From Comamonas testosteroni TK102 (GTDB lineage: Bacteria; Pseudomonadota; Gammaproteobacteria; Burkholderiales; Burkholderiaceae_C), in NCBI RefSeq assembly GCF_000739375.1, contig NZ_CP006704.1:3968001-4032000 (forward strand): DNA of 64,000 nucleotides. The letters run 5' to 3'. This document shows, one piece after another, positions 4,507-51,735 of this stretch. The position numbers and the translations under genes were made by a program. The notes below the pieces were generated by a model. That model was not told the DNA's origin and did not search any database. It was given only the letters and a program-made list of their open reading frames with translations. Position 1 is the first letter of the stretch, and each line of letters starts with the position of its first letter.

Positions 4507-5559
4507 TTACTGAAACTGCGACAGGAAACGGATGTCGCCGTCGAAGAACAGGCGCAGGTCGTTGACGCCATAACGCAGCATGGTCAGGCGGTCGGGGCCC
4601 ATGCCAAAGGCAAAGCCGATGTATTTTTCGGGGTCCAGGCCCATGTTGCGCACCACATTGGGGTGCACCTGGCCGGCGCCCGAGACCTCCAGCCAGCGAC
4701 CGGCCAGCGGGCCGCTCTGGAACTGGATGTCGATTTCGGCCGAAGGCTCGGTGAACGGGAAGAAGCTGGGACGAAAGCGCAGCACCAGATCATCCTGCTC
4801 GAAGAAGGTCTTGCAGAAATCGGTGAACACCACCTTCAGGTCCTTGAAGCTCACGTTCTCGCCGATCCACAGGCCTTCGCACTGGTGGAACATGGGCGAG
4901 TGGGTGGCATCCGAGTCCACACGGTAAGTGCGGCCGGGGGCAATCACGCGGATTTCGGGCATGGTCTGGCCGGCGTCGAGCGCGTTGCGGTAATTCTTCA
5001 CATGCTGCACGGCATGACGCACCTGCATGGGGCTGGTGTGTGTGCGCAGCAGATTGGGCGCGTGCTGGGTGCCGCCTTCGACATAGAAGGTGTCGTGCAT
5101 GGAACGCGCGGGATGGTCTTCGGGCGTGTTCAGCGCCGTGAAGTTGAACCAGTCGGATTCGATCTCGGGGCCCTGGGCCACATCAAAGCCCATGGAGCCG
5201 AAGATGCCCTCGATACGCTCCATGGTGATGGAGACGGGGTGCAGCCCTCCCGCGCCACGACGGCGACCGGGCAGAGTCACATCCAGCACCTCGGCTTTCA
5301 GATGGGCCTGCAGCTCGGCATCCGCCAAGGCCTTGCGGCGGGCGGTCAGAGCCGCTTCGATCGCCTGCTTGGCCACGTTGATGGCAGCGCCGCGCGACTT
5401 TTTCTCTTCGACGGAAAGCTGCGCCATGCCCTTCATGAGCTCGGTCATCTTGCCCGACTTGCCCAGAAACTGCGCCTTGGCATTTTCCAGATCAGCGGGG
5501 GTGTGGGCTTGCGCAAACAGTTGCTGTGCGCTTTCGACCAGAGAATCCAACTCGTTCAT
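4507..5559 (-). CDS. pheS: Phenylalanyl-tRNA synthetase alpha subunit
   Basis: This 350-residue catalytic subunit of PheRS activates phenylalanine with ATP. An N-terminal coiled-coil tRNA-binding segment (about 1-85) is followed by the class II catalytic core with motif 2 ([18 protein letters not shown], about 225-242), [13 protein letters not shown] and motif 3 ([22 protein letters not shown]). The length is normal. A hairpin with a U-tract ends only about 20 bases before the ATG, leaving no room for a promoter in between, so expression must read through that element. pheT follows. Confidence 0.98.
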
Positions 5560-6542: not shown

Positions 6543-7166
6543 TTATGCCTTATCTGCAGCCTCAGGTGCAGCAGCGACACCATCGCCTTGTGGTTTTGCA
6601 CCACCAGCGGGCTTCTTGCCACCTGCACGAGCCGGCGCAACCATCATGATCATCTGACGGCCTTCCAGCTTGGGGAACTGCTCCACCTGGATGGAATCGG
6701 CCAGATCGTCACGCAGACGGTTGAGCAGATTCAGACCCAGCTGCTGGTGCGTGATTTCACGGCCGCGGAAACGCAGCGTGATCTTGCACTTGTCGCCTTC
6801 CGCCAGAAAACGGCGGATATTGCGCAGCTTGATGTTGTAGTCACCATCATCCGTACCAGGGCGGAACTTCACTTCCTTGATTTCGATGACGGTCTGCTTG
6901 GCCTTGGCTTCGGCAGCCTTCTTCTGTTCCTGGTACTTGAACTTGCCGTAATCCATCAAACGGCAGACCGGAGGAGATGCGTTGGCCGCGATTTCCACCA
7001 GGTCGACATCCAGCTCGCCGGCCATGCGCAGCGCTTCTTGCAGCGGCACGATGCCCAGAGGCTCGTTCTCAGGACCAGACAGACGCACTTCAGGCGCCAT
7101 GATTTCTCGGTTCAGTCGATGCTTGCGCTCTTCACGGTGGCGCCGATCGCGAAATTCAGTAGCTAT
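6543..7166 (-). CDS. infC: Translation initiation factor IF-3 (ATA start codon)
   Basis: This 207-residue protein binds the 30S subunit, blocks 50S joining and proofreads start codons. The N-domain ([59 protein letters not shown]) and C-domain (about 95-178) are complete, followed by an unusual Ala/Gly/Pro-rich tail of about 29 residues. The start is set at ATA 7166 ([15 protein letters not shown]): AAGGG lies 8 bases before it, and no ATG gives the family N-terminus. A GTG nine bases upstream overlaps the Shine-Dalgarno region. Rare infC starts let IF-3 control its own synthesis in E. coli, where the codon is AUU. Confidence 0.93.
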
Positions 7167-7257
7167 GGTTTTCACCCTTGGATTGAAATGGCTACAACAG
7201 CGTAGCCGGCTAGCGTGCCTTGCACGCTGACCGACCCGCCACAAAAATTAATCTGCT

Positions 7258-9177
7258 TCAGGCCTTGGCCGTGATGTCCTTGGCGAGCAATTCAATGAAT
7301 GCATCAACCGACATCACTCCGAGGTCTTTGTTACCCCGGGCGCGCACTGCAACCGCACCAGCGGCCTTCTCCTTGTCGCCCGCGACAAGGATGTAGGGCA
7401 GCTTCTGCATGGAATGCTCGCGTATTTTATACGTAATCTTTTCATTGCGCAGATCTGTCACTACCCTAAGGCTTTGATTCGGCAATGCTTTTTGCAGCTT
7501 CTGCGCAACTTCCTGCGCATAGTCGGCCTGAGCGTCCGTAATATTGAGCACGGCAGCCTGCACGGGAGCCAGCCAGGCAGGCAGCGCGCCCGAGTGATGC
7601 TCGACCAAAATGCCGATGAAACGCTCGAGCGAACCCAGAATCGCGCGGTGCAGCATGATGGGACGATGGCGCTCGCCATCCTCGCCCACGAATTCCGCAT
7701 CAAGACGCTCGGGCATGTTCGGGTCCACCTGGATGGTGCCGCACTGCCATTCGCGGCCCAGCGCATCCTTCAGGGTGTACTCGATCTTCGGGCCGTAGAA
7801 AGCGCCCTCGCCAGGCAGATACTCGAACTCGCAACCCGATGCGCGCAGACCCTCGGCCAGCGCGTTCTCCGCCTTGTCCCAGGCTTCATCGGTGCCGATG
7901 CGCTTCTCGGGACGGGTAGACAGGCGATACAGGATATTGGTGAAGCCGAAGTCGGCATACACCTTCTGCAGCAGCGAAGTGAAAGCCGTCACCTCAGCCT
8001 GGATCTGGTCTTCGGTACAGAAGATGTGACCATCGTCCTGGGTGAAGGCACGCACGCGCATGATGCCGTGCAGCGAACCGGTGGGCTCGTTGCGATGGCA
8101 GTTGCCGAACTCGCCAAAGCGCAACGGCAGATCGCGATAGCTCTTGATGCCTTGCTTGAAGATGATGATGTGGCCCGGGCAGTTCATGGGCTTCAGGGCA
8201 TATTCACGCTTTTCCGAATCGGTGGTGAACATGTTTTCGCGATACTTGTCCCAGTGGCCGGTCTTCTCCCACAGGCCCTTGTCCAGAATCTGCGGAGCCT
8301 TGACTTCCTGGTAGCCGTTGTCCTGATAGACGCGGCGCATGTACTGCTCGACCTGCTGCCAGACCGCCCAACCCTTGGGGTGCCAGAACACGGTGCCGGG
8401 CGAATGCTCATCGATGTGGAACAGATCCAGCTCGCGCCCCAGCTTGCGGTGATCGCGCTTTTCGGCTTCTTCCAACCTGAACAGATAGTCCTTAAGCTCG
8501 TCTTTGGTCGCCCAAGCGGTACCGTAGATGCGCTGCAGCATCTCGTTGCGGTGGTCGCCACGCCAGTAGGCACCGGCCACCTTCATCAACTTGAAGTGCT
8601 TGAGCTTGCCAGTGCTGGGCACGTGAGGGCCGCGGCACAGATCCTCGAAAGCGCCTTCGCGGTAAAGGCTCACGTCCTCGTTGCTGGAAATGGAGGCAAT
8701 GATCTCGGCCTTGTAGGCTTCGCCGAGACCCTTGAAGTACTGCACGGCCTCGTCGCGAGGCAGCACGCGGCGCACCACCTGCTCGTCCTTGTTGGCCAGC
8801 TCGGTCATCTTCTTTTCGATGGCAGCCAGATCTTCGGGAGTGAAGGGGCGCTTGTACGAGAAGTCGTAGTAGAAACCGTTCTCGATCACGGGGCCGATGG
8901 TGACCTGGGCATCGGGAAACAGCTCCTTGACAGCATACGCCAGCAAGTGAGCGGTGGAGTGACGAATCACTTCCAGACCATCGGCATCCTTGGCGGTGAT
9001 GATGGACAGCGGCGAATCCTGCTCGATCACAAAGCTGGTGTCCACGACCTTGCCGTTGATCTTGCCGGCCAGTGCGGCCTTGGCCAGGCCGGAGCCGATC
9101 GAAGCAGCGACTTCAGCGACCGAAACCGGACCTGGATATTCGCGCTTGGAGCCATCGGGGAGCGTGATGTTGATCAT
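7258..9177 (-). CDS. thrS: Threonyl-tRNA synthetase
   Basis: This 639-residue class II synthetase charges tRNA-Thr in the cytoplasm. Domains in order: TGS (about 1-62), the editing domain with its zinc-like histidines ([16 protein letters not shown] and [10 protein letters not shown]), the catalytic core (about 245-535, with [12 protein letters not shown] and the motif-2 region [23 protein letters not shown]) and the anticodon-binding C-domain. ATG 9177 ([11 protein letters not shown]) is preferred to an in-frame TTG at 9192 because AAGGAA precedes it closely. A Thr-rich leader peptide and a terminator/antiterminator array lie between 9247 and 9363. infC follows 91 bases downstream. Confidence 0.97.
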
Positions 9178-9246
9178 GAAATTCCTTGTCAAACCAAATT
9201 TGTGTGGGGGAAAGCCAGCGCCAGAGCTTTGGAATCGCCTGAAAGC

Positions 9247-9363
9247 AAAAAGCGCGGAACCAGTCCGCGCTTTGATGAGGATGTCGAGAAATCTCGGGCA
9301 GGCGCGAACCGCCAGCTGCCATCAGCAGCTGAAATACATCTCCGATGTAGTTCGCGGTGTCAT
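9247..9363 (-). promoter_or_regulatory. Candidate threonine attenuator in the thrS leader
   Basis: On the minus strand four segments form mutually exclusive pairs. Segment 1, CGCGAAC (9350-9356, inside the Thr codons of the leader peptide), pairs with segment 2, GTTCGCG within 9301-9310. Segment 2 (TTCGCGC) also pairs with segment 3 (GCGCGGA, about 9264-9270). Segment 3 pairs with segment 4 as a 10-bp stem (9264-9273 with 9249-9258) followed by a short T-tract, which is an intrinsic terminator. A ribosome stalled at Thr codons would cover segment 1 and favour the 2:3 antiterminator. The pairing is seen in sequence; the mechanism is inferred. Confidence 0.6.
9322..9363 (-). CDS. Putative thrS leader peptide (13 residues, Thr-rich)
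   Basis: The frame reads MTPRTTSEMYFSC and stops at TGA 9322-9324. Three of thirteen residues are Thr, two of them adjacent (ACT ACA). GAGAAAGG lies about 11 bases upstream. An in-frame ATG at 9408 would lengthen it to 28 residues with five Thr codons, but that ATG overlaps a TTAAAAT box that could be the promoter -10. The stop lies 12-20 bases before segment 2 of the attenuator, as expected of a leader peptide. Translation is unproven. Confidence 0.5.
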   Translation of the reverse strand: MTPRTTSEMYFSC

Positions 9364-9423
9364 AACCGTTGATGCCTTTCTCGCCCTTGTGAATTGAAGT
9401 CGTGGCATTTTAACCCGGCAATC

Positions 9424-9455
9424 AAAAAAGCGCCCGAGACTTTCGCCCCGGGCGC
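9424..9455 (-). terminator. Terminator of aceA
   Basis: On the minus strand GCGCCCG pairs with CGGGCGC (9449-9455 with 9430-9436), followed by TTTTTT (9424-9429). It is 44 bases past the aceA stop and directly abuts the thrS leader. Confidence 0.85.
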
Positions 9456-9498
9456 ATAACCCCTTTTTTACCTAGACAGAATCACGATTGATCGCAAC

Positions 9499-10830
9499 TC
9501 AATGGAACTGCTCTTCCTCGGTGGAGCCGGTCAGCGCCTTGACGCTGGACGAGCCGCCCTGGATCACGGTGGTCACGTCGTCGAAGTAACCTGCGCCCAC
9601 TTCCTGCTGGTGCGAGACAAAGGTGTAGCCCTTGTCACGTGCCGCGAATTCGGGCTCCTGGATCATTTCCACGTAGTGCTTCATGCCCTCGCCGCGAGCG
9701 TACTCGTGGGCGAACTTGAAGGTGTTGTACCAGTTGCTGTGGATGCCGGCCAGCGTGATGAACTGGAACTTGTAGCCGAGCGCGGACAGGTCTTCCTGGA
9801 AGGAGGCGATCTGGCTGTCGTTGAGATTCTTCTTCCAGTTGAACGAAGGCGAGCAGTTGTAGCTCAGCAGCTTGCCTGGGCAGGCGGCATGCACGGCCTG
9901 GGCGAATTCGCGGGCAAAGCCGATATCGGGCACACCGGTTTCGCACCACACCAGATCCGCGTAGGGAGCGTAGGCCACGCCACGGCTGATGGATTGCTCC
10001 AGGCCGTTCTTGACGCGGTAGAAGCCTTCTTGCGTACGCTCGCCGGTCAGGAACGGAATGTCGTTCTCGTCGTGGTTGCTGGTGATCAGATTGGCCGCTT
10101 CGGCATCGGTACGGGCCAGCACGATGGTGGGCACGCCCATCACGTCGGCGGCAAAGCGAGCCGCGATCAGCTTCTCGACCGCTTCACGGGTGGGCACCAG
10201 CACCTTGCCGCCCATATGACCACACTTCTTGACTGCAGCCAGCTGGTCTTCAAAGTGCACGCCGGCAGCGCCCGCCTGAATCATGTTCTTCATCAGCTCG
10301 AACGCGTTGAGCACGCCGCCAAAACCGGCTTCCGCATCAGCCACGATGGGCAGGAAGTAGTCGATGAACTCCTTGTCGCCGGGGTTGATGCCCTTGCCCC
10401 ACTGGATTTCGTCGGCACGCTTGAAGGTGTTGTTGATGCGGCGCACCATGGTGGGCACGGAATCGTAGGCGTACAGAGACTGGTCGGGATACATGGTCTC
10501 CGAGGTGTTGCCGTCGGCAGCCACTTGCCAGCCCGACAGGTACACAGCTTCCAGACCGGCCTTGGCCTGCTGCATGGCCTGGCCCGCAGAGATGGCACCG
10601 AAGGCGTTCACATAGCCCTTCTTCGAGCTGCCGTTGATCTTGTCCCACAGCACTTCGGCTCCGCGCTGGGCCAGGGTGTACTCGGGCTGCAGGCTGCCAC
10701 GCAGACGCACCACATCGGCGGCGCTGTAGCCGCGCTTGACGCTCTTCCAGCGTGGGTTCTGTGCCCAGTCTTTTTCGAGGGCTGCGATTTGCTGTTCACG
10801 GCTCAGTTGCTGGGTCAGGGATTGGGGCAT
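9499..10830 (-). CDS. aceA: Isocitrate lyase
   Basis: This 443-residue cytoplasmic enzyme splits isocitrate into glyoxylate and succinate, the first step of the glyoxylate shunt used for growth on acetate and fatty acids. The catalytic loop KKCGH (in [18 protein letters not shown], near residue 205) and metal-binding acidic residues in [12 protein letters not shown] are present. AAGGAG lies 7 bases before ATG 10830. The gene stands alone between its own terminator and a 500-base AT-rich upstream region. No malate synthase is in the window. Confidence 0.97.
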
Positions 10831-51342: not shown

Positions 51343-51495
51343 CTTGCGGGCTGCCGAACAGCCAACCGGTGAGAGCAAGGGCGCGCCCAGGCAGCCCAGG
51401 GGCACCCGAGGCTGACAGCCGCAAGACCGCTCAAACCCAATTGATACAGGTATTAACCCGAATAAAGTCGTTGGAACTGGCTAGAATCGCGCCCA

Positions 51496-51735
51496 TCCCG
51501 CGGGAGAGCGGAACCTGTCAACGGTTCCCGCCGAAGGCGCAAACTCCCATAATCGCTCAGGCAATAAGTACCGCAGGTGGGTCTGACAGGACCCGGATAT
51601 CGCCAACTGGAGAGCAGCCCGCGACCACAAGTCTGCAGGGCTCACCGAAGGGGCAAGCATGCGCACCGCGAAGGCGCCCATGTGCAACTCTCAGGTAAAA
51701 GGACAGCGGGAGAGGCAAGCCGGACACTCCCGCTG
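51496..51735 (+). promoter_or_regulatory. Tandem glycine riboswitch
   Basis: Two glycine aptamers are arranged in tandem. The first has GGGAGAGC near 51502, CCGCCGAAGGCGCAA near 51529 and CGCTCAGGCAA near 51554. The second has TGGAGAGC near 51608, CACCGAAGGGGCAAGC near 51640 and CTCTCAGGTAAAAGGACAG near 51688. A 9-bp hairpin CAGCGGGAG/CTCCCGCTG (51704-51712, 51727-51735) then ends exactly at an ATG and is the likely expression platform. A TAGAAT -10 box lies at 51482-51487. The element controls the PF03458-type membrane gene downstream. Confidence 0.92.

Follow-up and report, generated by a model that had tools for sequence, protein, structure and literature searches.

Upstream of thrS, the gene for threonine--tRNA ligase, the 64,000-nucleotide stretch of Comamonas testosteroni TK102 DNA analyzed here (hereafter, the window) carries a short open reading frame with three threonine codons, followed by a terminator hairpin, which raises the question of whether transcription into thrS is set by translation of a leader peptide. 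The first-pass annotation had read this arrangement as a classic threonine attenuator. We find that reading supported, with the threonine codons and the terminator conserved and a geometry that fits ribosome-mediated attenuation, and we consider it very likely that thrS is controlled here, probably together with infC, rplT and rpmI (the last identified by eye), by a ribosome-mediated attenuator that senses charged tRNA-Thr. What the sequence analysis establishes is the leader ORF, its threonine codons, the alternative pairings, the terminator, the location of the stop codon near one of the pairing segments and the conservation of the whole before thrS.

The leader and its neighborhood in the window

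The controlled gene, thrS, occupies positions 7258-9177 of the minus strand, on which all features below lie unless stated otherwise, and matches TIGR00418 with 726 bits. It is probably in one operon with infC (6543-7166, searched against its family model as 6543-7205), and no terminator was found between the two genes on the minus strand. Family models confirmed the identities of thrS, infC, rplT, pheS and the upstream gene aceA. The start of infC was placed by eye at 7166-7164, where it is apparently ATA, a rare start codon. Further along, a hairpin with a stem of 10 bp, a loop of 14 nt and a T-rich tail (5623-5581) precedes pheS, whose start was placed by eye at 5559. E. coli has a pheST attenuator before pheS; no Phe-rich leader was seen by eye before pheS in the window. 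Elsewhere in the window, two adjacent glycine riboswitch aptamers lie on the plus strand at 51491-51716 (Rfam RF00504).

The leader peptide ORF, MTPRTTSEMYFSC, comprises 13 codons and a stop at 9363-9322, with ACA, ACT and ACA as its threonine codons, and is preceded by a putative Shine-Dalgarno sequence, GAGAAAGG, at 9382-9375, in alignment columns that are largely conserved. A 17-base core that is near-invariant in relatives, TTATGACACCGCGAACT, lies at 9349-9365. As the first-pass annotation had claimed, the ORF is present with its three threonines and overlaps the first of four pairing segments: segment A (CGCGAAC, 9356-9350) sits inside leader codons 3-5. A hairpin, CAGCTGC/GCAGCTG, recognized from the fold and from changes in aligned leaders, surrounds the leader stop codon (9313-9331), and segment B (GTTCGCGC, 9309-9302) can partner either A or C. 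Segments C (9273-9264) and D (9258-9249, followed by a T-tract) are the left and right arms of the attenuator terminator, which the terminator scan placed at 9273-9249, ending ∼70 nt short of position 9177, where thrS starts. The duplex energies are -11.2 kcal/mol for A:B, -12.5 kcal/mol for B:C and -16.1 kcal/mol for C:D. The 7-bp pairing of A with B and the terminator stem with its T-tract before thrS were thus found as they had been described, as was a separate terminator of aceA ahead of the leader, which the scan located at 9455-9430 with an 11-bp stem and a T-tract. The pairing of B with C also stands, though the length of about 7 bp that had been given is slightly short, as we count 8 bp, one of them G-U, and the stalled fold has 10 bp.

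Within the window, the strength of this evidence differs between components. The terminator scan of 8900-9900 returned two terminators, those of aceA and of the attenuator, against a mean of 1.0 in shuffled sequences, and for that reason the attenuator hairpin is unremarkable when taken alone. The fold of 9240-9408 gave a z-score of -2.2, with 3 of 200 shuffles folding as well, and that of 9270-9420, which omits most of the terminator, gave -1.5, with 16 of 200 as good. The A:B pairing is absent from the unconstrained MFE structure of the leader, and in the truncated window transcript segment A is paired downstream with a probability of 0.55. That the element exceeds chance is confirmed by its single core match, the 17-base core occurring once in the window even when up to three mismatches are allowed (0.07 expected), together with its conservation before thrS.

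Conservation, codon usage and predicted switching among relatives

From 118 of the 201 genus and family genomes searched, we collected one thrS upstream region apiece: the window's own, 29 from other genomes of the genus, 28 from the closest genomes of the family and 60 from further family genomes. The genus part consists of genomes that gave a locus and are closest in ThrRS. The sample as a whole thus favors closer relatives. An in-frame M-T-P-R-T, in any codons, precedes thrS in 102 of the 118 regions, with 0.04 of 118 expected from shuffles, and 110 have a terminator within 150 nt upstream of the thrS start, compared with 0.6 in shuffles. The threonine codons and the terminator are therefore kept in relatives, which was the test that the first-pass annotation had set for its own proposal. 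Removing near-duplicates from the leader set left 74 non-redundant leaders.

The remaining 16 regions lack an M-T-P-R-T leader on either strand. Twelve of these leaderless genomes keep a hairpin before thrS, seven of them (L045, L057, L059, L077, L096, L113 and L114) together with five (L050, L081, L090, L093 and L098) in which a -10-like hexamer lies 21-34 nt before the hairpin, and in leaderless loci the hairpin may now act as a 5′ stem-loop. Two of the 16 need a caveat: L110, which is motif-free on both strands, entered the terminator and promoter listings in the wrong orientation, and L057, also motif-free, was placed slightly off the thrS start. Separately, six loci (L013, L017, L018, L019, L032 and L033) have a different leader, beginning MTPRTQ and with another spacer, before a closely similar thrS; because such loci occur both within the genus and beyond it, they suggest that the thrS unit has been exchanged. 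A second thrS-like gene, 57-59% identical, is present in three genus members (G038, G050 and G019).

A putative -10 hexamer of the thrS leader, TAAAAT, lies at 9412-9407 and has conserved counterparts in relatives. The pattern TA[ACG]AAT occurs upstream of the leader in 60 of the 74 non-redundant leaders, compared with 1.9 expected in shuffles, and the hexamer mostly falls 40-59 nt before the leader start. Between the terminator and thrS the same pattern is found in none of the 74, which says little because only 1.1 were expected. No sigma-70 consensus promoter was found in a scan of 8900-9900.

Codon usage in the leaders points to selection both on threonine as an amino acid and on the core as nucleotides. 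Threonine stands at codons 2 and 5 in all 74 leaders, which is partly built into the search pattern; the third base of codon 2, which the pattern leaves free, is A in 73. At codon 6, outside the pattern, threonine occurs in 53 of 74, and since it is written with all four codons (ACA 15, ACG 22, ACC 13, ACT 3), it is selected there as an amino acid. Codon 7 is threonine in 34 leaders, and 67 of 74 have threonine somewhere past residue 5. Over all positions past codon 5, threonine makes up 151 of 674 residues, compared with 5.3% in 30 ORFs of the window, in a stretch of the peptide that is otherwise variable.

The core itself was examined with synonyms allowed: 82 of 102 leaders read ACA CCG CGA ACT, 16 have ACG as the last codon and 4 depart in other ways, so that 98 of 102 use ACA CCG CGA AC(T/G), and to judge from these codons the core is selected at the nucleotide level. 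These are not common codons in the 30 window ORFs, where ACA and ACT, the codons at leader positions 2 and 5 in the window, make up 6.7% and 6.6% of threonine codons, and CGA 4.7% of arginine codons. Conservation also reaches ahead of the start codon, with GG at -4 and -3 in 74 of 74 leaders and GGT in 73. Because B varies while A stays constant, the conservation of the core exceeds what the A:B pairing needs.

To model the switch, we cut each transcript after arm C and placed a ribosome with Thr5 in its A site. Across the 102 leaders, the probability that C is paired upstream rises from 0.36 in the free transcript to 0.73 with the ribosome at Thr5, compared with 0.58 and 0.63 when the spacers are shuffled. 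The difference exceeds 0.3 in 60 of the 102 leaders and in 41 of the 74 non-redundant ones, and is zero or reversed in 12 of the 74. Among 44 order-level rows, in four of which a genome's leader is represented a second time, the corresponding values are 0.37 free and 0.64 stalled, with 0.53 and 0.55 in shuffles; here the difference exceeds 0.3 in 20 and is absent or reversed in 12. A ribosome stalled at Thr5 is thus predicted to let B capture C from the terminator.

Taking B as the best partner of C, we find a median distance of 1 nt from the leader stop to the start of B. The distance is no more than 12 nt in 64 of 74 leaders, whereas shuffles achieve this in 30.4 leaders on average and in 38 at most. 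In most leaders B is therefore placed where a ribosome bound at the stop would block the antiterminator. In the window the placement is marginal: B starts ∼10 nt past the stop, so a ribosome there would cover only the edge of B and block it partially.

The stems were also followed through an alignment of 26 leaders, chosen from the 74 as alignable. Paired cells amount to 92.3%, compared with 35-45% when the alignment is slid, and cells changed on both sides number 21, compared with 9.8 in shuffles. Six pairs are changed on both sides when the three stems are taken together, a count that 122 of 500 shuffles reach. The support for covariation comes from the hairpin around the stop codon, with changes on both sides in five of its six pairs, and from one pair of the C:D terminator. 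The B:C stem has one such pair, in three sequences, and 441 of 500 shuffles reach as much. A:B shows no compensatory changes among the 26 aligned leaders, because segment A is nearly invariant.

Range of the core and the tRNA-Val gene in other lineages

Allowing up to one mismatch, a search of 349 genomes of the order found the 17-base core in 45, at 46 places, compared with 5 places in 4 genomes for the reversed control. Thirty of the 46 places were read, and at all 30 the core precedes thrS; a further one-mismatch site, in G070, lies outside these 30. An exact 19-mer of the core, searched blind in named genomes, occurs in at least 118 stretches. Among the matches listed, thrS lies downstream in 115 of 118 (77 of 80 and 38 of 38), and the remaining three stretches end too soon, 43, 212 and 347 nt after the motif. 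The titles listed are mostly Comamonas, Delftia, Acidovorax, Variovorax, Polaromonas and Rhodoferax, with Hydrogenophaga, Massilia, Janthinobacterium, Cupriavidus and similar names in addition, and a few MAGs among the matches listed bear other titles (one Alphaproteobacteria, one Chitinophaga). The element extends beyond the family and is wider than the first-pass annotation had supposed.

Across the order, we took thrS upstream regions from 88 of the 110 genomes searched, covering 45 families; in a few of them the thrS start is unconfirmed by pattern. MTPRT is present in 8 of these loci and absent from 80, many of which are without any leader that could be named. A short ORF with a threonine run nevertheless occurs in 18 of the 80, compared with 0.4 in shuffles, and an arginine CGA followed by a threonine codon also occurs in 18, compared with 1.4 in shuffles (maximum 5). 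Examples of threonine-rich leaders from other families are MSFRTTTTGTLNLG, MQLNRTTTTS and MFKRTTTTRISR. A terminator lies before thrS in 61 of the 88 loci, compared with 0.7 in shuffles.

A tRNA-Val(GAC) gene lies upstream of thrS, in the same direction, in 65 of the 88 loci (27 of 30 hand-picked and 38 of 58 others), and in several families (for example at L194, L208, L210 and L227) the features immediately after it are a terminator and then thrS, and no leader is apparent. Valine-rich ORFs, seen in 17 of the 80 loci without MTPRT, were considered as a valine leader and rejected, since we attribute them to the tRNA-Val gene that these stretches also contain.

Of 85 other genomes searched, belonging to other orders of the class, 28 loci were examined, and 21 of these have tRNA-Val(GAC) upstream of thrS. 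In L252 and L254, both of which were read, a terminator stands between tRNA-Val(GAC) and thrS and there is no leader. No comparable leader was found in the 28 loci; two hold weak threonine-bearing ORFs (L250 and L258), and the loose MTPRT matches in L252 and L254 lie far from the thrS start, so nothing here supports a shared leader in other orders. Since tRNA-Val precedes thrS in loci of other orders that have no comparable leader, this arrangement looks older than the leader.

Proposed mechanism, rival explanations and known systems

In the mechanism we propose, transcription would begin immediately after 9407. With uncharged tRNA-Thr, the ribosome would stall at codon 2, 5 or 6 and cover A, allowing B to pair with C and RNA polymerase to continue into thrS. 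With charged tRNA-Thr, the ribosome would instead reach the stop codon and hinder B, or leave so that A:B can form; with B hindered or held in A:B, C would pair with D and transcription would end.

Apart from this mechanism, the hairpin could be an ordinary terminator, of tRNA-Val or of aceA, that happens to precede thrS, with the leader ORF incidental. Loci in several families and outside the order, where a terminator and then thrS come after tRNA-Val and no leader can be seen, are what one would expect in that case, as is the retention of the hairpin in 12 of the 16 leaderless genomes. In the window, however, a separate terminator serves aceA, with a conserved -10-like hexamer in between, and the threonine codons, the stop position and the predicted switching all exceed their shuffled controls, which makes this explanation improbable. 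The nucleotide-level conservation of the core and of the GG before the leader start bears on a different possibility, that ThrRS itself binds the leader in the style of the E. coli thrS operator and that the near-invariant core is its site. Such binding would account for constant nucleotides, but no tRNA-like arm was seen in the folds, which were inspected without a model search, the terminator loops vary, and outside the core, threonine codons are under selection as codons; we consider this very unlikely.

The excess of core conservation over what A:B pairing asks, B varying where A does not, would also be explained if the terminated leader were chiefly a source of a trans-acting small RNA or of a working peptide, its linkage to thrS being secondary. 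Against this, the core precedes thrS wherever there is enough sequence to tell, both at the order-level places read and among the listed 19-mer matches, and the peptide is variable past residue 5, so we give this idea scarcely any credence. A ribosome-mediated attenuator thus remains our reading of the locus. As to its origin, it is conceivable, though we hold it with low confidence, that the thrS attenuator of the Burkholderiales grew from the terminator of a tRNA-Val(GAC) gene already present upstream of thrS across the wider class, where, as in the order, this neighbor is common, with the threonine leader arising in the 3′ trailer of the tRNA and a promoter being gained later in the window's family, and that the 19-base core is kept by a second role at the RNA level, such as ThrRS binding or a trans-acting RNA. 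If the trailer origin is true, a tRNA shared its transcript with a sensor for the charging of a different tRNA.

The leader has no Rfam match in the window, where the enterobacterial threonine operon leader is absent up to an E-value of 10 and no match to the T-box covariance model was listed. Leader-peptide attenuators control the enterobacterial his, thr, trp and pheST operons, and the thrS element resembles them in its cognate-codon leader ORF, its mutually exclusive hairpins and its intrinsic terminator before the gene. It differs from them in the gene, thrS, in the lineage, Burkholderiales, in the almost invariant start of its leader and in the tRNA-Val gene found upstream in many other families. 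At thrS itself, the E. coli operator works at translation, with ThrRS binding tRNA-like arms by the ribosome binding site; there the gene is the same and feedback acts on ThrRS, whereas the window element, with its leader ORF and terminator, appears to be transcriptional. In Firmicutes, T-box control of thrS likewise reads the charging of tRNA-Thr and acts on a terminator before the gene, but the T-box reads the tRNA directly and has no leader peptide.

A comparative survey of 2010 reportedly treated attenuation of aminoacyl-tRNA operons and may hold a prior prediction; no description of this element was found in the literature searched. E. coli ThrRS is named among proteins that regulate their own expression, and leader-peptide attenuators of hisS are predicted in bacilli (PMC2965389). 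The hisS elements are likewise leader peptides predicted to control an aminoacyl-tRNA synthetase gene, for histidine and in bacilli, a likeness that is one of description. The element is best read as an attenuator of a known kind, with a gene and lineage that are new as far as we have seen.

The frozen 19-base core presents a clear experimental puzzle, and with living families ranging from tRNA, terminator and thrS up to the complete leader attenuator, the way in which an attenuator originates becomes open to study. If the proposed mechanism is true, threonine supply would set the expression of the thrS operon, with IF3 and ribosomal proteins, through a leader peptide, and the leader would be a third solution at thrS beside ThrRS binding in E. 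coli and the T-boxes of Firmicutes.
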